Source of the DNA: Anaerolineales bacterium
GTDB taxonomy: Bacteria > Chloroflexota > Anaerolineae > Anaerolineales > E44-bin32
Length of the DNA: 9,565 nucleotides
Direction: 5' to 3'
Assembly: GCA_011772595.1 (NCBI GenBank)
Contig: WVZH01000228.1
Span: 71,018 to 80,582 of the forward strand
Below are positions 615 to 8,968 of the stretch, in pieces. The notes under the pieces are model-generated. The model was not told the origin of the DNA. It saw nothing but the letters and a program-made list of their open reading frames with translations, and searched no databases. The translations under genes were made by a program, and so were the position numbers. Position 1 is the stretch's first letter. Every line of letters begins with the position of its first letter.

Positions 615-3086
615 TCAAAGGGATACATAATTTTTGCTACTGTTGTTTACGCGGGGATCAGGGATCTGGGACAAGGGATTGGGAAGAACGTAGGGATTAG
701 GGATCAGGGACTGGGTATCGCCCTTCGTGTTGATGCTACAAACTTGATCCCTATGCTCTTCCTGATCCCCGATCCCTAATCCCTGCTCCCTGTCCCAAGC
801 GGTGGGCCTCAGCGCCCACAAGGGTGCGCCAATATCCACGCCCGGCGGCGGCAGCACGCCTGGCGACCCCCAGTAGCCGGCGTTGGCCAGCAGCCAAGTT
901 TCCAGTGTGGCGCGGTCCACGCCGACGGCGGCGAAGACGCTCTCCACAGCGCGCAGCATGAGTTCGGTGTAGGCTGCCCGGTCGTAGGGTATCTCGCCTT
1001 CGATCCGCTCCCAGGCACGCGCCTTCTCCGGCCCCGGCACCAGCAGGAAGCGCAGCCGTTCCCCTGGGCTGAGCTCCACGCCCTGGCGTGTCAGTTCCAC
1101 TGCAACGCGGGCGGCGACGGTGCGCACGACGTATTCGTCCGGGCGACGCGACAGGCGGTGGGTGACGACCAAATCGCGCGCCGGGACGAGGCCGGCGCGC
1201 AGCAGGTGCAGGCGCTGCGCCGCGTAGGACACCGCTGTCGGCATGGCGGCGCGAAACCCGCGCGCGTCGCGACCCTGAGCCAGGATGTTGAGCATTTCGA
1301 GTTGCGTTTCCTTGATGTAGGGCGGCGTGTCACGGCGGCGAGCCTCGATGCCGCGCACCTTGAGCGAGCCGTCCTCGTAGGCGCCGAAGTAACGGTTGGC
1401 GACGGTTACGCGCGGCTCGGTGCGCGAGGGCAGAAAGGCCAACCAGCGGTAGATCCCCTCCAGGCCGATTTGCAAGCCGGTCTCGGCGCGAATCGTCTCC
1501 AGCAGAGCTTCATAGTCCGGTCGCCCTTGCGCCTGCGGCTTGTGGATCCACAAGCCGTCTACGTACAGGTGCAGGACGCGAAAGCCGCGCGCTTCGACCA
1601 ATTCTTTGGTCCTCAGCAGTACCTCGCGTCCGTAGGCGTTGACGGCTTCGTGGGCTTCGATGCGTCCAAAGCGGGCGTTCTTGTAGCCCAGGTAACCAAA
1701 GCAGGTCACCAGGAGCCACTTGTGGGCCGAGTAGCGCCGCCGGTAGGTCTCCGCTTGCGGGGCGTCCTCGGGCAGCGCCCGTATCTGCGCCTTATAGCGG
1801 TTGCGCTTCTCGAGCAGCGGCGCCAACGTCTCCGGCACCAAACCCTGACGGTGGTGACAGACGGGCGTACCCAACTCAGGGATCGGCTCGCCCGGGCAGC
1901 ACGCTGCACCGACGGTCTCGGGGGAGATGTTGAAGTGCACCATGATGCTGGGATACATCGCGGTGAAGTCGAGTTCGGCGACGTGCTCGTGCAAGCCAAG
2001 GATGGGGGCATAGACGAGGCCGCCCTTGTCGGCGAGCAGCAGATCACTACCGCTCTTGAGTGTTTCGGGTTGGCGTTTCTGCCAGGGCACCAACACGCCG
2101 CGTCGCAGGGCGGTGTTGACCTGCATGGCGCTGATCCCCGTGCCGGTGGAAACACGCGCCACGGTCTGGATCGGCAAGTTGGTGAGGCGTGCGATCTCCA
2201 GGATCCCGTCCATGCCGTAATCGTTGGCCAGGAAGGCGTTCTGGCGGTCGAGGTGCCAGCGTCCGAAGAGCAGGTGCTGCTCGTTGCGGAAAATCACTCG
2301 GCCATATGAGAAGTAGGAAGAGGCCGGCTTGTGCTGCACTTGCTTGGCGCGGTCGCGGTTGAGTTGCAGTGGGATGCCGTAGTGGCGGGAGAGTTGGAGC
2401 AGGCGAGGGAGGATGTAATTGTCGCCATAGGTGCTCACCAGCGCGTCCGGGTCGTAGCGTTCGACCAGGTGGCGCACGCCGAGCAGCAGCTGCCGGCTCT
2501 TCGTGCGCGGGAAACGAAACGTTTGCCCCTCGATCTCCACCAGCAGGTCGCCGCGGTGGCCGCGACCCGGGTCGCGGCTCTCGCCAGCGAGCTGTAGGGT
2601 CATCACGCGCAGCGGCGGGAGGCGATAGTCGATCTCCCAGGGAGTGTCGAGTGCCTCGATGCGTCGTATGCGGCCTTGCTGGTGTTCGACGGTGCAGTAG
2701 GCCAGCGGGAACACTTCCCGTGCTAGAGCGTAGCGCTGTGGTAGTGGAATGTCGGCGTCGTAGTACGTCAGATCGGGGCGCAAATCGGCTGTCTGTCGGA
2801 ACAAGCGCGGCAGCAGCCCCGGCACGCGCACGCCGACCTCCAACGCCTCAACAGCGCGATCGAGGAACAAGTCCATGCGTTCCACGCGACGAAGCGTCAC
2901 CGGCGCTCGCTGAGCGCGCAGCATCTGGCAGACGGCGCGCAGTTCTTGGCGAGGTCCGCGCGCGTAGAAACAGGGGGTGAAGGTGTCCCGCAGGAGGTGC
3001 GCGTCGCCCTGCTCGTCGATCAGCCACACCGCCATGCCGTCTCCGGCGGGATAGACGTCGAAGAGCCAACCGAACAACGATGTCAT
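615..3086 (-). CDS. Family B DNA polymerase homologue with degenerate catalytic motifs (PolB2-like)
   Basis: An 823-residue family B DNA polymerase homologue. Motif A is intact (ELDFTAMYPSI, D373). Motif B is K456WLLVTCFGYLG, where the usual KxxxNSxYG has lost N and S. Motif C is Y508-V-D-G-L-W513, so the second aspartate of YxDTDS, a metal ligand in active enzymes, is leucine. KVRGIEARRRDTPP (576-589) matches the family's KxRGxE-RRD palm/thumb element. The exonuclease region is recognisable but eroded: Exo I reads LQLAGE (164-169) without the DxE pair, and Exo II reads TYGDNYILP (219-227) without the second D. It may therefore be a structural or lesion-bypass factor with little or altered activity, like the inactivated archaeal PolB2 family. 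Its ATG shares one base with the preceding stop (TGATG), suggesting coupled translation. About 59 C-terminal residues from W764 on are encoded by the 653-796 repeat; the native end is probably near residue 760. Confidence 0.9.
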   Translation of the reverse strand: MTSLFGWLFDVYPAGDGMAVWLIDEQGDAHLLRDTFTPCFYARGPRQELRAVCQMLRAQRAPVTLRRVERMDLFLDRAVEALEVGVRVPGLLPRLFRQTADLRPDLTYYDADIPLPQRYALAREVFPLAYCTVEHQQGRIRRIEALDTPWEIDYRLPPLRVMTLQLAGESRDPGRGHRGDLLVEIEGQTFRFPRTKSRQLLLGVRHLVERYDPDALVSTYGDNYILPRLLQLSRHYGIPLQLNRDRAKQVQHKPASSYFSYGRVIFRNEQHLLFGRWHLDRQNAFLANDYGMDGILEIARLTNLPIQTVARVSTGTGISAMQVNTALRRGVLVPWQKRQPETLKSGSDLLLADKGGLVYAPILGLHEHVAELDFTAMYPSIMVHFNISPETVGAACCPGEPIPELGTPVCHHRQGLVPETLAPLLEKRNRYKAQIRALPEDAPQAETYRRRYSAHKWLLVTCFGYLGYKNARFGRIEAHEAVNAYGREVLLRTKELVEARGFRVLHLYVDGLWIHKPQAQGRPDYEALLETIRAETGLQIGLEGIYRWLAFLPSRTEPRVTVANRYFGAYEDGSLKVRGIEARRRDTPPYIKETQLEMLNILAQGRDARGFRAAMPTAVSYAAQRLHLLRAGLVPARDLVVTHRLSRRPDEYVVRTVAARVAVELTRQGVELSPGERLRFLLVPGPEKARAWERIEGEIPYDRAAYTELMLRAVESVFAAVGVDRATLETWLLANAGYWGSPGVLPPPGVDIGAPLWALRPTAWDREQGLGIGDQEEHRDQVCSINTKGDTQSLIPNPYVLPNPLSQIPDPRVNNSSKNYVSL
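653..796. repeat. Inverted heptamer-array repeat, copy 1, inside the polymerase 3' end
   Basis: The left arm (653-715) is a G-rich string of heptamers such as GGGATCA, GGGATCT and GGGATTA. The right arm (744-796) is the C-rich counterpart. The arms match in order even across the non-repeat piece: GGAAGAACGTAGGGAT on the left against GGAAGAGCATAGGGAT on the reversed right arm, so this is one long imperfect hairpin. Runs of GGG spaced three or four bases (653-677 and 693-715 on plus, 767-796 on minus) fit the G-quadruplex pattern. The copy is read through in frame by the polymerase gene. Likely roles are a 3'-end structure, a terminator, or a non-autonomous repeat. Confidence 0.85.
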
Positions 3087-3499
3087 CAGTCCTCCCGGGG
3101 TCGGGTGTGCTTGCTGGGGCGGTTGGGCTCTGGGTCTGGGAGTGGTGATGCACCTAGTGCCTGGCCCGAGTCAGCCGCGTCTATGGAGGTTTGTGGAGAG
3201 GGAAGCGGCGGAGACTGATCCGGGTCCGGGTGCATCATCACTACCAGACGCTGGAGGTCGTCGAGGCGCTGTCGCAGGCGGCGCACCTCCTTGTGTTCCT
3301 CCACCAGCATGGCCAGCAACATGGTCTCGAAGGGCAGCAGGTGGGAGGCGTAGGCAGCGGCGGCCAAATGGTGGCGAGAGGCCGCTAGGAGGTCGTCGAG
3401 CGCGCGTTGGTCTTCCAGACGCAACGCGCGCCGAAAACGGCTCAGGGATTGTTGCTCCTGCAGGAAGGCGTTGGTGATGGAGGGTAGTGTTCGGCCCAT
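3086..3499 (-). CDS. Small helical protein of the RecA-like/PolB cassette, function unknown
   Basis: A 137-residue protein in two parts. Residues 1-88 are predicted almost entirely helical and rich in Arg, Leu and Ala (SRFRRALRLEDQRALDDLL, then LAMLVEEHKEVRRLRQRLDD, with coiled-coil spacing). Residues 90-137 are proline-, serine- and aspartate-rich and probably disordered. No enzyme motif is present. The ATG at 3499 has GAGG about eight bases upstream, and its TGA overlaps the polymerase ATG by one base. Position between a RecA-like gene and an inactivated polymerase suggests an adaptor that links the two or binds DNA; this is inference from context. The disordered tail could carry a short peptide for a clamp or partner, but I see no clear clamp-binding consensus. 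Confidence 0.8.
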   Translation of the reverse strand: MGRTLPSITNAFLQEQQSLSRFRRALRLEDQRALDDLLAASRHHLAAAAYASHLLPFETMLLAMLVEEHKEVRRLRQRLDDLQRLVVMMHPDPDQSPPLPSPQTSIDAADSGQALGASPLPDPEPNRPSKHTRPRED

Positions 3500-3518
3500 G
3501 GGTTACCTCAAGGAAATA

Positions 3519-3604
3519 GGGATTAGGGTCGGGGATTAGGGATTAGGATTGTGGGATCTGGAAGTATGTGGTTTCCTGATCCCAGATCCCTATTCCCTGA
3601 TCCC
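3519..3604. repeat. Inverted heptamer-array repeat, copy 2, between RecA-like gene and helical-protein gene
   Basis: The left arm (3519-3561) holds GGGATTA-type heptamers and the right arm (3581-3604) is four exact heptamer-spaced CCC runs. GGGATCTGG at 3553-3561 pairs exactly with CCAGATCCC at 3582-3590 across a 20-base loop. Both arms fit the G-quadruplex pattern on their own G-rich strand (3519-3541 plus, 3581-3604 minus). The stop codon of the RecA-like gene (3606-3608) abuts the right edge, and the left edge lies about 20 bases from the next start. It therefore fills nearly the whole gap inside the cassette and could reduce or tune downstream expression. Confidence 0.85.
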
Positions 3605-3605
3605 T

Positions 3606-4205
3606 TTAGAAGAGTTGTGGCTGCTCCGCCAGTGCTCCTTCCGGCGCGCGCAACAGCCAGGCGATGTCCGCTGCCACCTGGAGATGGTCCAACAGCGCCC
3701 AGCGCTCCTTGACCAGCGCGCGCGGTTCGCGCGCGCCGACGATCACCGGGCCGACCGCAGCCAGCCGTTTCAGGTGGGTGATCGTGGTCGCCAGCAGGCG
3801 TTCGCAGTCGCGTAACGGTACGCTCTCGTCGTAGAAGGTCGTCAGCAGATCGAGGACGAAGAGCGGTTCGGGAGCGCTGGGTGTGTTCTCGATCAACTCG
3901 GCCAGTTGGAAGCAGGTGAAGGCGCGCGATAGGCGGATGCGCTCCAGCGCCGCGTAGGGGTGTTTGCACATGCGCCGCGCCAGGCGGGCGATGAAGTAGC
4001 CATCAAAACGGTTGCCCCCGTCGAAGACGCGCACGGGTCGACCGCCCACGGCCAAGGTGGTGAGCATCGCCAAGAGCGCCCGGGTTGGCGTGTCGGCGCC
4101 CCAGAAGAGGGCGATGCGCGGTTGAAGCAGCGCTTCCAGCAGTGCCGGATCCTTGGCCGGCAGCGGGAGGTGCATGAGCGCAAACGGATCGTTTTCTTCT
4201 TGCAT
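3606..4205 (-). CDS. RadA/RecA-like ATPase homologue lacking the Walker A lysine
   Basis: A 199-residue single-domain RecA-fold protein. The Walker A position reads ALFWGADTPTRALL (32-45) with no GK[ST]. The segment VRVFDGGNRFDGYFIARLAR (58-77), followed by RIRLSRAFTCFQLAELI (89-105), matches the order in RadA/Rad51, where an acidic strand and N-R-F are followed by 'I-x-V-A-R-A-F-x-x-x-x-Q'. A Walker B-like strand LFVLDLLTTFYDE follows (115-127). It probably does not hydrolyse ATP normally and may act as a Rad55- or ImuA-like accessory protein that touches the recombinase filament. I chose the ATG at 4205 because AGGAGG lies seven bases upstream (4213-4218); a longer frame from 4340 has no such signal and would read through the operator. 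It is the first gene of the cassette, behind a LexA box. Confidence 0.85.
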   Translation of the reverse strand: MQEENDPFALMHLPLPAKDPALLEALLQPRIALFWGADTPTRALLAMLTTLAVGGRPVRVFDGGNRFDGYFIARLARRMCKHPYAALERIRLSRAFTCFQLAELIENTPSAPEPLFVLDLLTTFYDESVPLRDCERLLATTITHLKRLAAVGPVIVGAREPRALVKERWALLDHLQVAADIAWLLRAPEGALAEQPQLF

Positions 4206-4212
4206 CGAGGAT

Positions 4213-4218
4213 CCTCCT
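4213..4218 (-). promoter_or_regulatory. Ribosome binding site fixing the RecA-like start
   Basis: AGGAGG on the minus strand, seven bases before ATG 4203-4205. It decides in favour of the 199-residue product over the 45-residue N-terminal extension. Confidence 0.8.
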
Positions 4219-4255
4219 GAGATCTCCGAGCAGGGACGTACGCCGCTCCGGAAAT

Positions 4256-4269
4256 CGAACATTTGTTCT
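4256..4269 (-). promoter_or_regulatory. LexA (SOS) operator overlapping the cassette promoter
   Basis: CGAACATTTGTTCT on the plus strand contains GAAC-N4-GTTC, the core of the Gram-positive/actinobacterial LexA box (consensus CGAACRNRYGTTYC). It lies about 52 bases before the start of the RecA-like gene. A likely -10 (TATAGA, minus strand 4272-4267) overlaps its right half, with a weak -35 (TTTCTT, 4295-4290) 17 bases further up. Bound repressor would cover the -10 to +1 region. The LexA assignment rests on the motif match and on the repair-like genes it precedes; the lexA gene itself is not in the window. Confidence 0.72.
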
Positions 4270-4301
4270 ATATGGTAGTCGAAGGGGAAAAGAAAACCAT
4301 C

Positions 4302-4314
4302 CCACCCAGGGTGG
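4302..4314 (-). terminator. Possible weak terminator after the acyltransferase
   Basis: CCACCC-A-GGGTGG forms a short stem that is followed on the minus strand by GATGGTTTTCTTTTCC. It lies between the acyltransferase/repeat end and the LexA-controlled promoter, where a terminator is expected. The loop is too tight for all six pairs, so the real stem is four or five pairs; the T-tract is interrupted. Confidence 0.3.
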
Positions 4315-4358
4315 AACCGAGGGGGGGATGTGCGTATCACCTATGAGGGGGAGTAAAA

Positions 4359-4436
4359 GGGGATCAGGGAACAGGGATCAGTACACTGATATCATAGATC
4401 GCTCTTCCAGATCCCTAATCCCTGATCCCTAATCCC
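4359..4436. repeat. Inverted heptamer-array repeat, copy 3, at the acyltransferase 3' end
   Basis: The left arm (4359-4380) is GGGGATCA-GGGAACA-GGGATCA. The right arm (4407-4436) carries CCC runs at exact seven-base spacing (4413-4415, 4420-4422, 4427-4429, 4434-4436). On the minus strand the right arm is a textbook G3N4 x 4 quadruplex pattern; the left arm has only three G-runs. The reversed right arm continues GGGATCTGGAAGAGC, close to the GGATCAGGAAGAGC of copy 1 and the GGGATCTGGAAG of copy 2, so the three copies share a core. The acyltransferase stop codon lies inside it. Confidence 0.85.
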
Positions 4437-5095
4437 TGTTCTTCCAGCAATTCCAGTAACCGGGGATGCCCGGTATACACGCCCCAATATTTTTCGGGGA
4501 GAAGTAGCGCGATTCTGCACATGATCTCGTCGGTGTTGCGGCGTAGATCGGCGTGGCGTGTCTCTTCGTTGAGAGGTGGGAGATGGAAAGGTTTGCCGAT
4601 GCGCAGGTCGATTTTGGGGCGGCGGAGGCGAGCCAGCATTTGGAAGGTCGCTTCGGTGCCCGCGATGCCGATCGGTACGATGGGGGCGTGGGATTCGTGC
4701 GCAAGGAAGGCGGCGCCGGTCTTGCTGCGTATGAGCGAGCCCACCTTGCTGCGGGTGCCTTCCGGCGCCAAACCGAAGATGTATCCCTGATGGATGCGTG
4801 TAACACCAAGTGAGAGCGCGTCGCGGTCGACTTGGCCGCGCCGAATAAAGATGCCGCCGTAAAGGCGAATGAGGTTTCCGTAGATAAGATGCCGTTCGTA
4901 TTTCTCGGCGGCCCACCCGGTCATCCGAGGCCCTTGTAGAATCGAGAAGACCAATGCGCCATCGACGATGCTCATGTGGTTAAACACGAGGATGTAGGGG
5001 CCTTGGGTCGGAAGATTCTCGTAGTCGTAGATGGAGAGCCGTGTCAGGAGCGCGAATACCACTCTCAGAAGCCAGCGTGAGACGCGAAAGAACAC
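4415..5095 (-). CDS. plsC: 1-acyl-sn-glycerol-3-phosphate acyltransferase family protein (PlsC-like)
   Basis: A 226-residue lysophospholipid acyltransferase of the PlsC family, which transfers an acyl group to lysophosphatidate or a similar acceptor at the inner membrane. All four family motifs are present: the catalytic NHMSIVD (about 39-45), GGIFIRRG (about 79-86), FGLAPEGTRS (about 106-115) and VPIGIAG (about 140-146). The N-terminal WLLRVVFALL is a hydrophobic membrane-association segment. The start is GTG at 5095 with AAGGAG about six bases upstream. The last residues (EEQGLGIRD) come from repeat copy 3, so the native C-terminus was probably near ELLEE. It is transcribed away from the GNAT gene through a shared symmetric promoter. 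The exact acceptor cannot be read from sequence: phosphatidate synthesis and aminolipid O-acylation are both possible. Confidence 0.88.
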   Translation of the reverse strand: MFFRVSRWLLRVVFALLTRLSIYDYENLPTQGPYILVFNHMSIVDGALVFSILQGPRMTGWAAEKYERHLIYGNLIRLYGGIFIRRGQVDRDALSLGVTRIHQGYIFGLAPEGTRSKVGSLIRSKTGAAFLAHESHAPIVPIGIAGTEATFQMLARLRRPKIDLRIGKPFHLPPLNEETRHADLRRNTDEIMCRIALLLPEKYWGVYTGHPRLLELLEEQGLGIRD

Positions 5096-5189: not shown

Positions 5190-6317
5190 ATGATTACGGT
5201 TCATCAAGTTGACACCCGCGAGAAGCGTCAGGTACGTCGTTTTATCGATTTTCCCTTTCGGCTTTATGAGAAACATCCGCTGTGGGTGCCGCCGATTCGT
5301 ATCGACGTCGCAACGCGGATGAACCGCGAAAAACATCCTTTCTATGAGCATTCAGACGCTGAGTTCTTTCTCGCCGTCCGCGATGGAGAGGACGTCGGGC
5401 GCATCGCGCTACTGGAGAACAAACCCTACAATCAGTATCACACAAAGGAGCAGGCGCAGTTTTATTATTTTGAATGTCTAGGAGACTTGGAGATCGCTCG
5501 GGCGCTCTTCGCACACGCGGATGAATGGGCGCGTGCCCGCGGCCTCAATCAGGTTGTCGGCCCCAAAGGATTCGGTCCACTCGATGGGTATGGTATGTTG
5601 GTGGATGGTTTCGAGCATCGGCCGGCGATGACCATGATGAACTACAACCCACCCTATTATCCGAAGTTCATGGAGGAACTCGGGTTCCAGAAGGAAGTTG
5701 ATTTTGTCTCTTGTTATCTGGGGGCTGATACGTTCAGACTGCCTGAGAGAGTGCATCGCATTGCCGAACGTGCCGCCAAGCGTAGCGGATTGGCGGTGAA
5801 GCGTTTTGATAGTAAACGCGAATTACGCGCATGGGCGCCGAGAATTGGGAAGACATACAACGATTCGTTCGTGGAAAATTGGGAATATTATCCGTTGAGC
5901 GAGAATGAGATCGATTATGTTCTCAACGAAATCCTGACCGTCACTGATGCGCGGCTGATCAAGGTCATCACACATGGGGATCAAGTCGTTGGCTTCCTCT
6001 TCGGGTTCCCGGACGTCTCGGCGGCCATCCAACGCAGCAAGGGTCGCCTCCTTCCCTTCGGAATCCTCGACCTGCTTATCGAAATGAAGCGCACCAAATG
6101 GATCGCCTTGAATGGAGCCGGGGTTCTGCCCGAGTATCACGGACGTGGTGGCAACGCCTTGCTTTACTCGGAGATGGAGAAGACCATACACGAGTTTGGC
6201 TACCAACACGCCGATCTGACCCAGGTCGCAGAGAGCGCCGTACAGATGCGTGCCGACCTGGAAAATGTGGGTGGCGTGCCTTACAAGAACCACCGAGTTT
6301 TCGTTCGCGATCTATAA
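5190..6317 (+). CDS. Tandem GNAT-fold acyltransferase-like protein, substrate unknown
   Basis: A 375-residue protein with two GNAT-like halves. The N-terminal half (about 10-180) runs from FIDFPFRLYEKHPLWVPP through AEFFLAVRDGEDVGRIALL to a strongly conserved-looking GPKGFGPLDGYGMLVDGF. The C-terminal half (about 200-375) contains VVGFLFGFPDVS and the acyl-CoA-binding-type loop EYHGRGGNALLYSEME (about 315-330). Similar proteins of about 380 residues are annotated as GNAT-family or YghO-like without known substrate. I prefer ATG 5190 because GGGAGGT lies just upstream (5179-5185); a GTG at 5166 in the same frame would overlap the predicted transcription start. It is divergent from the PlsC-like gene under one promoter, which hints at a shared lipid-acylation job, but this is inference. 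Transcription probably ends at the hairpin after 6336. Confidence 0.82.
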   Translation: MITVHQVDTREKRQVRRFIDFPFRLYEKHPLWVPPIRIDVATRMNREKHPFYEHSDAEFFLAVRDGEDVGRIALLENKPYNQYHTKEQAQFYYFECLGDLEIARALFAHADEWARARGLNQVVGPKGFGPLDGYGMLVDGFEHRPAMTMMNYNPPYYPKFMEELGFQKEVDFVSCYLGADTFRLPERVHRIAERAAKRSGLAVKRFDSKRELRAWAPRIGKTYNDSFVENWEYYPLSENEIDYVLNEILTVTDARLIKVITHGDQVVGFLFGFPDVSAAIQRSKGRLLPFGILDLLIEMKRTKWIALNGAGVLPEYHGRGGNALLYSEMEKTIHEFGYQHADLTQVAESAVQMRADLENVGGVPYKNHRVFVRDL

Positions 6318-7099: not shown

Positions 7100-8098
7100 T
7101 CAATCCAGCTTCGTCTTCATCCAACCGCTGGTGTTGTGGAAGTCGGCAACAGCGCTTCCCGGTGGGACGATCTCATCGAGGGCGGCAGCAGTATCAGCCT
7201 CCAGGTGCATGTCGAGCACGCCGAGCGCATCCTCCAGATGCTCCTCGGTTCTCGGACCGATGATGGGTGACGTCACGGCGGGCTGGTCTCTAACCCAGAG
7301 GAGTGAAAGTTGGGAGGGTGTGATTCCAACTGAGGCAGCTAGCTCGGAGACCTTTCGTCCCGCATCTATACCTTTCTTGGTCACACGCTCGGCCGCCCAG
7401 GTCCCGATGCGAGCTGCACGCGATCCTTTCGGGTGCTGGTCGAATTCCTTGTAGCGACCTGCAAGAACTCCTATTGCTAGCGGGGAGAAGGGAAGAATTG
7501 CGATATTGTAGCGCAGCGCCATGGGTACCAGCTCGTTTTCGATACGCCGATCCAGCAGGTTGTAGGGTGGTTGCTCGGTCACGTACCGAGATAGTCCATA
7601 ACGTTCACTGATCGCCAGCGCCTCCATCACCATCCACGTGGGGAACGTCGAGCAGCCGATGTAGCGCACCTTTCCCTGGTGGACAAGATCGTCAAGGGCG
7701 CGTAGGGTCTCGTCTTGTGGAACGTCGAAAACGGGACGATGGATCTGGTATAGATCAATCCAATCGGTCTGCAGGCGGTTTAGGGACCCCTCCACGGCGT
7801 GCAGGATGTGAAGCCGAGAGTTGCCGAAATCGTTGGGGTCGCCCGATTGAGGATAATGGACTTTGGTGGCAAGGATGACCTTATCGCGTCGGCCGTCTGA
7901 CAGGGCCTTGCCGATAACGCGCTCGCTTTCGCCTTGCACATACGTGTTCGCCGTGTCGATGAAGTTGATCCCCTGATCGAGAGCCTTGTGAAGCATGCGT
8001 ATGGCTTCCTTTTCCGGGGTTGGACCGCCGAAATTCAACGTTCCCAGACAGAGAGGAGATACGCGAACCCCTGTGCGACCGAGCAATCGAAATTCCAT
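7100..8098 (-). CDS. Aldo/keto reductase, NADP(H)-dependent
   Basis: A 332-residue TIM-barrel aldo/keto reductase of usual family length, cytosolic, reducing aldehydes or ketones with NAD(P)H. The family signature GRTGVRVSPLCLGT is at 7-20. The catalytic tetrad is complete: D48 and Y53 in FIDTANTY, K79 in ATKVHY, and H120 in YQIHRP. The C-terminal cofactor element SPIIGPRTEEHLEDAL lies near 277-292. It resembles the YghZ/AKR11-12 group; the substrate cannot be assigned from sequence. The ATG at 8098 has AAGGGG about eight bases upstream. It follows the AAC(3)-family gene by 60 bases on the same strand and may be co-transcribed with it, though inverted repeats in that gap could interrupt or process the message. 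Confidence 0.92.
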   Translation of the reverse strand: MEFRLLGRTGVRVSPLCLGTLNFGGPTPEKEAIRMLHKALDQGINFIDTANTYVQGESERVIGKALSDGRRDKVILATKVHYPQSGDPNDFGNSRLHILHAVEGSLNRLQTDWIDLYQIHRPVFDVPQDETLRALDDLVHQGKVRYIGCSTFPTWMVMEALAISERYGLSRYVTEQPPYNLLDRRIENELVPMALRYNIAILPFSPLAIGVLAGRYKEFDQHPKGSRAARIGTWAAERVTKKGIDAGRKVSELAASVGITPSQLSLLWVRDQPAVTSPIIGPRTEEHLEDALGVLDMHLEADTAAALDEIVPPGSAVADFHNTSGWMKTKLD

Positions 8099-8122: not shown

Positions 8123-8186
8123 TTCCGGAAGCCCATAGCTACCCGGAAGTTTGATGGCTCACGACTTATGATTCTGTGAGAGCCAT
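8123..8186 (-). other. Two inverted repeats between AAC(3)-like and reductase genes
   Basis: ATGGCTCAC (8154-8162) pairs with GTGAGAGCCAT (8176-8186) with a two-base bulge; on the minus strand this stem overlaps the stop codon of the upstream gene. A second pair, TTCCGG (8123-8128) and CCGGAA (8143-8148), follows. There is no T-run, so intrinsic termination is doubtful. RNA processing or attenuation is possible. Confidence 0.35.
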
Positions 8187-8968
8187 TGCAGCGCGAAGTC
8201 GACGGCGTCTCGTTGTGGAAAGAGGCGCGCCTGCGCCGATCCGATTTTCCCTTTTATGACATGTGAGCTGGCTTCGAAATCTATGCCCATCCGTTCGAAG
8301 GGTTCGTCATCGAGATAAATGTCTTCATACATTTTCCAGACGCGGCGACCGTCCTGCATAATCGGTGCGCCCTGCTGGATGGGTTTTGGATTGGGCATGC
8401 GGTATTCTGCAAGGTGGAAGGAGCTGTTGTTATCGTACCCCACGCCGAGTAACAACACCCAACCGCCGAGATCGTAGATGCGTGCCAGGGGCGAGGCCTC
8501 ACCCATGTCGCTGCCCAGGGCGTGATCGGCGGTGACGAAGGAGGCGTTTGCTCCCCAGGCAGCGAAGGAGGACGTGGGGTGAGCACTGCGTAGCACGCCC
8601 GGCCAGGTGCGGAAAACCTCGACGATGCGCCCCATTTGGCGGGTAGGCGTGGTGCGCGGATCGTATGCAGGCATAGTCTTGCGGATGATCGCCCACCATG
8701 CCTCCGGCACGGGTGGGTTTTCCCATTTCGCTGGATCGCTGAGGTCGCCGGAATGGGTCGGCATCACCAGCGTTCCCTCCGGAGTGATCACGTCCATCAG
8801 TGCTTGCACTACGGTAACCGGGCCACCGCATACCCAACCCAGCGAGCTAAGGGAACTATGGACGAGCACGGTCATTCCGGCTTCTAAGCCAAGATGTTTA
8901 AAGTCGCGTATGAGCGTCTTCCCCGTGCGAGGCTCGGGGGATTTACGGATGGATTCAGCTTCGCTCAT
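8159..8968 (-). CDS. AAC(3)-family aminoglycoside N-acetyltransferase-like protein
   Basis: A 269-residue member of the antibiotic N-acetyltransferase family, which uses acetyl-CoA to acetylate the 3-amino group of 2-deoxystreptamine aminoglycosides. Family landmarks are in order: VLVHSSLSSLGWVCGG (34-48), LVMPTHSGDLSDP (67-79), HPTSSFAAWG (130-139) and LLLGVGYDNNSSFHLAEYR (172-190), with the His185 and Glu188 expected at the active site. Length is normal. Many chromosomal relatives, such as the YokD type, do not confer resistance and have unknown substrates, so resistance should not be assumed. The ATG at 8968 has no convincing Shine-Dalgarno; a -10-like CATAAT ends ten bases upstream, which hints at a leaderless message. 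The reductase gene follows on the same strand. Confidence 0.88.
   Translation of the reverse strand: MSEAESIRKSPEPRTGKTLIRDFKHLGLEAGMTVLVHSSLSSLGWVCGGPVTVVQALMDVITPEGTLVMPTHSGDLSDPAKWENPPVPEAWWAIIRKTMPAYDPRTTPTRQMGRIVEVFRTWPGVLRSAHPTSSFAAWGANASFVTADHALGSDMGEASPLARIYDLGGWVLLLGVGYDNNSSFHLAEYRMPNPKPIQQGAPIMQDGRRVWKMYEDIYLDDEPFERMGIDFEASSHVIKGKIGSAQARLFPQRDAVDFALQWLSQNHKS

Follow-up and report, generated by a model that had tools for sequence, protein, structure and literature searches.

The window analysed here is a stretch of 9,565 nucleotides from an Anaerolineales bacterium (assembly GCA_011772595.1, contig WVZH01000228.1, positions 71,018 to 80,582), and it contains three genes, iRadA, PPB2 and PolB2, which are arranged in tandem on the minus strand and are preceded by a LexA-type operator (Table 1). 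This order matches the arrangement of the PolB2 mutasome of the bacterial G2 group. The initial annotation, which was made from the sequence alone, had noted three same-strand genes for a RecA-fold protein without a P-loop lysine, a small helical protein and a family B polymerase with a broken motif C, together with an upstream LexA-type box, and all of these elements were confirmed. The stop codon of PPB2 and the start codon of PolB2 share one base (TGATG), which suggests coupled translation. The GTG at 4340, which the list of open reading frames gives as the start of iRadA, makes the protein too long and was rejected, since the ATG at 4205 has AGGAGG 7 bases ahead of it and coincides with the starts of the aligned relatives.

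Table 1. Features of the iRadA-PPB2-PolB2 operon, in positions of the window.
Feature	Position	Strand	Basis
LexA-type operator GAACAAATGTTC, core GAAC-N4-GTTC, minus-strand 16-mer TAGAACAAATGTTCGA	4257..4268	-	exact match, matrix 20.1 bits
AGGAGG, Shine-Dalgarno-like, ahead of the iRadA start	4213..4218	-	sequence
iRadA, 199 aa, RadA/Rad51 fold without P-loop lysine, QPQLF end	3606..4205	-	alignment, profile, predicted fold
PPB2 homolog, 137 aa, small helical, MGRT start	3086..3499	-	sequence comparison, predicted helices
PolB2 (bacterial G2 group), 823 aa, motif A LDFTAMYPSI intact, motif C HLYVD	615..3086	-	family matches, alignment, tree
PolB2 motif C HLYVD, residues 506-510	1557..1571	-	alignment: first Asp of DTD replaced by Tyr, second kept

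PolB2 matches the Pfam family DNA_pol_B with an E-value of 3.5e-27 and the NCBIfam model of type B polymerases with 5.3e-117, yet the latter match stays under that model's own cut-off. Its motif C, HLYVDG, has lost the first aspartate and keeps the second one (HxxxD type), and its relatives share this state: in an alignment of 64 rows, from which the locus L062 was excluded, the motif A aspartate is present in 63/63, the second motif C aspartate in 62/62 and the motif B lysine in 63/63 covered rows, and an aspartate at the first motif C position occurs in none of the 62 covered rows. Judging from the alignment, the 3'-5' exonuclease domain is inactivated, as the ExoI stretch (profile positions 129-195) gives no alignment to the best solved PolB and the ExoII region reads TYGDNYILP, with an isoleucine in place of the aspartate of the family motif. 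A D(K/R) motif, identified by its motif and not by structure, lies in WHLDRQN (D280 R281), and a C-terminal clamp motif was found in none of the 45 PolB2 rows tested. The archaeal PolB2 protein Dpo2 of Sulfolobus islandicus, which belongs to the motif C group HxxxD, is described as a robust polymerase without exonuclease; it inserts poorly opposite lesions, is efficient in extending primer ends that are mismatched or face a lesion, and accounts for damage-induced mutagenesis in this organism (PMC8764526). According to the same source the second aspartate of motif C binds metal and the first one points away, and its authors consider that the bacterial G2 group may act like Dpo2 (PMC8764526). 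By this analogy, the bacterial PolB2 is probably not dead, but an active polymerase. Kinship with the archaeal PolB2 proteins, which the initial annotation had suspected, is supported, where the likeness to Dpo2 rests on features described for this protein in the literature. Since Y-family polymerases are present in 9/10 close genomes, PolB2 is not their replacement.

The iRadA product has the loop WGADTPTR, which contains no lysine, between a predicted strand (residues 31-36) and a predicted helix (residues 40-53), and this would be the place of the P-loop according to the predicted model, as the sequence match to RadA begins at residue 58. The profile match to archaeal RadA is weak (best E-value 0.0016). 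All of the 50 PDB matches listed for the predicted fold (pLDDT 85; best match with an E-value of 1.7e-7) are by their titles RadA, Rad51, DMC1 or Rad51 paralogs. With a predicted RadA/Rad51 fold, lost ATPase residues, no N-terminal helical domain and a length of 199 aa, the modelled protein has the features of the G2 group. Its last residues, QPQLF, form a beta-clamp-type motif, of which Q and L are invariant in 25 aligned relatives (of 120 listed), and by a loose pattern such a motif is found in 36/51 loci. For PPB2, helices are predicted at residues 8-23, 28-49 and 54-89 (mean pLDDT 77), and a fold search with the predicted model was uninformative.

The search for PolB2 relatives gave 5844 proteins at an E-value of at most 1e-10 among 7997 candidates scored. 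The 120 matches listed share at least 71% identity, and their informative source names are Anaerolineales, Anaerolineaceae or Chloroflexota. When one genome per species was scanned, 62 loci were obtained, 60 of which are titled Chloroflexota or members of this phylum, the remainder being L057 and L058. The latter is filed under the archaeon Ca. Methanofastidiosum, contains a Chloroflexota-type operon with a LuxR-type leader gene and groups with Chloroflexota rows in the tree, which could reflect a transfer or the misbinning of this contig. In this tree, which excludes 10 PolB stretches whose matched segments are short as well as the copies L105, L116, L120, and L121, the window falls into a set of 11 rows with a support of 100, beside L001 (81% identity). 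The cassette was surveyed in 65 sequences, namely the 62 genome loci, two viral loci and the window. iRadA was detected in 51 of them, the match in L013 being short and weak (19.6 bits), and in 51/51 of the iRadA-bearing sequences PPB2 lies between its two partners, so the three genes are kept together. The 14 sequences without iRadA comprise six with PolB2 at the contig edge, L030 with an edge fragment of PPB2, L062 with a fragment of PolB2, the two viral loci and four loci that are taken up below. In an even draw of the phylum, which shares one genome with the first set (G001, identical to L001), 16/301 genomes carry PolB2 in 17 copies, and 16 of these have both partners matched; the remaining copy is cut by the contig end. 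The N-terminus of PPB2 is MGRT in 50/51 cases, and L111 from the even draw has MGNT. Two peculiar layouts were observed besides: in L119 (448-1501) iRadA and a weakly matching PPB2 (E-value 3e-4) lie in one frame, an apparent fusion as reported for some bacterial operons, and in L050, from Longilinea arvoryzae, iRadA and PPB2-PolB2 are about 1.7 kb apart (3012-4739), an apparent insertion inside the operon.

The operator GAACATTTGTTC at 4257-4268 is a perfect GAAC-N4-GTTC palindrome 51 bp ahead of the iRadA start codon, and this core is known as the LexA motif of Bacillus subtilis and Gram-positive bacteria (PMC3323433). In isolation the operator is not improbable by chance: the window contains two GAAC-N4-GTTC sites at 0.19 expected, one of 200 shuffles also gave two, and the second site (5676-5687) lies within an unrelated coding gene. 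Its significance comes from the comparison with relatives, from whose lexA loci the operator motif was taken. A LexA DNA-binding domain is present in 28/30 related genomes, and GAAC-N4-GTTC is found upstream of lexA-like genes in 29/30 loci in its exact form and in 30/30 if one mismatch is allowed. In the genomes of the window's clade, 9/9 lexA loci have a second box, GCAC-N4-GTTC, on the opposite strand, starting 23 bp on, and the GCAC half-site variant also precedes several PolB2 operons of this clade. With a 16-column matrix trained solely on lexA-promoter sites (cut-off 11 bits), the window operator scores 20.1 bits, a value that did not occur in 200 shuffles of this region, and within the window's clade 12/12 operons (window included) have the box at <=0.005 by dinucleotide shuffles, which preserve the upstream composition. 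Further counts refer to 49 operons, i.e., the 51 iRadA loci minus L027 and L048, which have no upstream sequence. In an initial scan of the 300 bp before iRadA, a box within one mismatch was present in 26/49 (control 9.4%) and an exact one in 9/49 (control 0.6%). Before the first gene of the operon, a box of at least 11 bits is found in 35/49 operons (window included) compared to 16 of 2558 control windows (0.6%), which were drawn at random within these loci and consist mostly of coding sequence. Control of the operon by LexA, as the initial annotation had proposed, is thus supported by comparison rather than by experiment.

A first impression, according to which many distant relatives lack the box, had to be revised, since in 22/49 operons, none of them among the 12 of the window's clade, it precedes a leading LuxR-type gene that sits between the box and iRadA. 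In many operons outside the window's clade, the box is accordingly found ahead of this leader gene, at a distance of about 480 to 690 bp from iRadA. The gene encodes a protein of about 130 residues, the C-terminal part of which is a LuxR-type helix-turn-helix (HTH), and the two proteins tested match Pfam GerE with E-values of 5e-15 and 1.7e-15; examples are found in L023 (about 291-689), L020, L039, and L059. A box of at least 11 bits precedes 19/22 HTH-led and 16/27 iRadA-led operons, and among the operons outside the window's clade 13/37 have a box at a shuffle p < 0.05. HTH-led operons occur in the tree, which has a midpoint root only, both in a small set (L011-L015) and in a large set of 50 rows.

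Among the known systems, ImuA-ImuB-DnaE2 is under LexA control and combines a RecA-fold partner with a polymerase in error-prone repair, but it uses a C-family polymerase and an inactive Y-family protein and has no PPB2, whereas the polymerase of the window belongs to family B. No match to a Y- or C-family polymerase was obtained among the 10 window proteins scanned. The functional parallel that had been drawn to ImuABC is nevertheless supported, and it extends to Pol V of E. coli (UmuD'2C-RecA), which is an SOS-induced polymerase with a small multimeric subunit carrying an N-terminal arm and with a RecA-family protein (PMC11791011), but which has a Y-family polymerase, an active RecA and UmuD' in place of PPB2. 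Dpo2 shares the HxxxD motif, the missing exonuclease and a damage-inducible operon with a RadA-like and a small helical partner (PMC8764526); it differs in having archaeal damage regulation in place of LexA, and archaeal members have PCNA-type rather than beta-clamp motifs. The closest system is the PolB2 mutasome itself, and the suggestion that the cassette might be a new system was not upheld, as a link among the three families in bacteria, in some cases with lexA as part of the operon, was reported in 2014 (PMC4104785), and the iRadA-PPB2-PolB2 complex was modelled and named PolB2 mutasome in 2025 (PMC11791011). There, iRadA-PPB2-PolB2 is given as the sole gene order in bacteria; PPB2 is a small three-helix protein that starts with MGRT; most PolB2 proteins lack the first motif C aspartate; PolB2 has an exonuclease domain without active site and a D(K/R) motif in the loop that meets PPB2; iRadA has no ATPase residues; a clamp motif is found in iRadA or PolB2, rarely in both; and the modelled heteropentamer consists of one PolB2, one iRadA and three PPB2 (PMC11791011). 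The window shares with the G2 mutasome, as described in three papers (PMC11791011, PMC4104785, PMC12926913), the gene order, the three families, MGRT, the loss in motif C, the lost exonuclease, D(K/R) and QxxLF, and we see no essential difference. A search of the PolB2 loci examined yielded no lexA gene, but the operator type of LexA is present. Furthermore, many Anaerolineae relatives add the LuxR-type gene, and the terms LuxR, helix-turn-helix, phage, virus, Chloroflex, and box do not occur in the main text of PMC11791011. A limited literature search found no paper on a LexA-type operator of PolB2 operons in Chloroflexota or Anaerolineae.

Copies of these genes are also found on mobile elements. 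The 15 plasmid PolB matches listed, from 134 records, are haloarchaeal, with 32-33% identity over 85-88% of the length, and in the plasmid region L128 PPB2 (E-value 8e-18) and iRadA (E-value 8e-9) lie beside PolB, as do PPB2 (E-value 4e-16) and a weak iRadA match (E-value 0.001) in L129. The IMG/VR contig L064/L122 carries PPB2-PolB2 (6001-8639 of L122) with holin and endolysin genes nearby, according to PHROG matches, and no iRadA was detected within the contig sequence examined; its PPB2 matches two PHROG families whose function is unassigned there. On the viral contig L063 PolB2 (from 4997) lies downstream of genes matching PHROG tail families, the IMG/VR contig L123 has iRadA-PPB2 from 5058 at its end, and L124 and L125 contain PPB2-like genes, with no PolB2 within the stretch examined. 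Two Leptospira phage records, L126 (3207-6259) and L127 (3198-6454), contain an iRadA-like gene, PPB2 and PolB2 in the same order, and their PPB2, which is only partly annotated, starts with MGRT.

Taken together, the three genes look like an error-tolerant DNA-copying complex acquired long ago from archaea, and we consider it highly probable that they form a bacterial PolB2 mutasome operon on an Anaerolineae (Chloroflexota) chromosome that is repressed by LexA and acts as modelled. RecA on single-stranded DNA would cause LexA to cleave itself and thereby free the operator at 4257-4268, which would lead to the joint production of iRadA, PPB2 and PolB2. In the published model one PolB2 would bind one iRadA via an oligomerisation motif like that of RadA, located in the loop that precedes D(K/R), and a PPB2 trimer would place one MGRT arm beside the active site. 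The QPQLF end of iRadA would hook the complex to the beta clamp, and PolB2, which is without proofreading and keeps the motif A aspartate and the second motif C aspartate, would then extend mispaired or lesion-facing primer ends. Polymerase activity and mutagenesis of the bacterial PolB2 are what we infer from these features.

Several points weigh against this reading. The loose clamp pattern is absent from iRadA in 15/51 loci, PolB2 residue 281 is R in 37/61 and residue 280 is D in 56/61 covered rows, and iRadA was undetected in L014, L016, L029, and L057 despite about 5 kb of upstream sequence. The operator assignment rests on the relatives. The count of 35/49 was set up after the box positions and the leader gene had been seen, with a leader-gene profile that was seeded solely from five box-bearing loci; when this step is left out, 26/49 operons have a box within one mismatch compared to 9.4% of the control segments. 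Moreover, 14/49 operons are under the 11-bit cut-off, several of them far below, and those of Ornatilinea apprima P3M-1 and Longilinea arvoryzae KOME-1, which are both named isolates, score 9.3 bits each. The conservation of gene order and box that the initial annotation had proposed to check was found, for the order in 51/51 and for the box in 35/49 operons, the exceptions being the four loci lacking iRadA and these 14. Also recA, an expected LexA target, is boxed in only 3/7 loci that include its start: ten recA loci were taken, seven of which include the start, and a box pair is present in L100, L103, and L104 and none in L095, L096, L097, and L101, with G001, which has a C-terminal piece beside an N stretch, left out of the inference. 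Finally, the papers cited here report no assay of a bacterial PolB2 member.

The last point would equally suit a PolB2 that is catalytically dead and serves, together with iRadA and PPB2, as a scaffold recruiting another polymerase to damaged forks, as the initial annotation had suggested. The loss of the first motif C aspartate in 62/62 covered rows speaks for such a role, and with ImuB there is a known case of a mutasome that contains an inactive polymerase (PMC12926913); but the motif A aspartate, the second motif C aspartate and the motif B lysine are invariant, and Dpo2 with the same HxxxD polymerises robustly (PMC8764526). We set the scaffold aside because the motif C is the PolB2 signature shared with active Dpo2, and regard it as improbable. 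It is even less probable that the operon is real but not controlled by LexA, the box being coincidental or belonging to another regulator. The core is short, its expected number in the window and its second copy in a coding gene are in line with coincidence, as are the operons under the cut-off and the sparsely boxed recA, and LexA-dependent induction is proposed from sequence comparison; the box in every operon of the window's clade, its excess over the control windows in the whole set and the occurrence of this core, along with the GCAC half-site variant, upstream of lexA-like genes are difficult to reconcile with this view. A similarly slim chance is given to the genes forming a module for the replication of mobile elements and not a repair system, with the chromosomal copies as phage or plasmid remnants. 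PPB2-PolB2 beside holin and endolysin genes (L064), PolB2 after tail genes (L063) and the copies in Leptospira phage records and haloarchaeal plasmids fit such an origin, but the window neighbours are ordinary chromosomal genes by their Pfam matches (acyltransferase, GNAT, a sub-cut-off Yip1, aldo/keto reductase, Antibiotic_NAT), many chromosomal loci have an intact operon, and a LexA-type box and absent proofreading fit repair. With regard to the LexA-repressed mutasome operon, a tentative and rather doubtful extension is that in many Anaerolineae lineages LexA directly controls a small LuxR-type head gene, the product of which delays or amplifies the mutasome output, that in the window's clade LexA controls iRadA directly, and that phage PPB2-PolB2 may assemble with host iRadA.

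Two observations concern other parts of the window. The Antibiotic_NAT family protein (aminoglycoside 3-N-acetyltransferase) is encoded at 8159-8968 on the minus strand; it comes from an environmental bacterium and resistance is not claimed. Three hairpin-like elements with degenerate AGGGATY heptads lie at gene ends (650-801, 3510-3605, and 4357-4437), and the pattern GGGATYAGGGAT for these elements has 7 matches in the window and none in shuffles. The element at 650-801 spans C-terminal codons of PolB2, and L001 has a copy (7290-7306) close to the end of its PolB2 gene.

The system itself is already described as the bacterial G2 PolB2 operon, and what is new here, to a modest extent, are the conservation of the operator, the LuxR-type gene at the head of operons and the copies in phages. 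The analysis also corrects the notion of a dead polymerase. In the papers cited here, knowledge of bacterial PolB2 mutasomes consists of sequences and models only. Two of the loci come from named strains, O. apprima P3M-1 and L. arvoryzae KOME-1, the boxes of which are among the weaker ones. With a LexA-type operator conserved in a group of Chloroflexota, damage-inducible, PolB2-dependent mutagenesis becomes a testable prediction.

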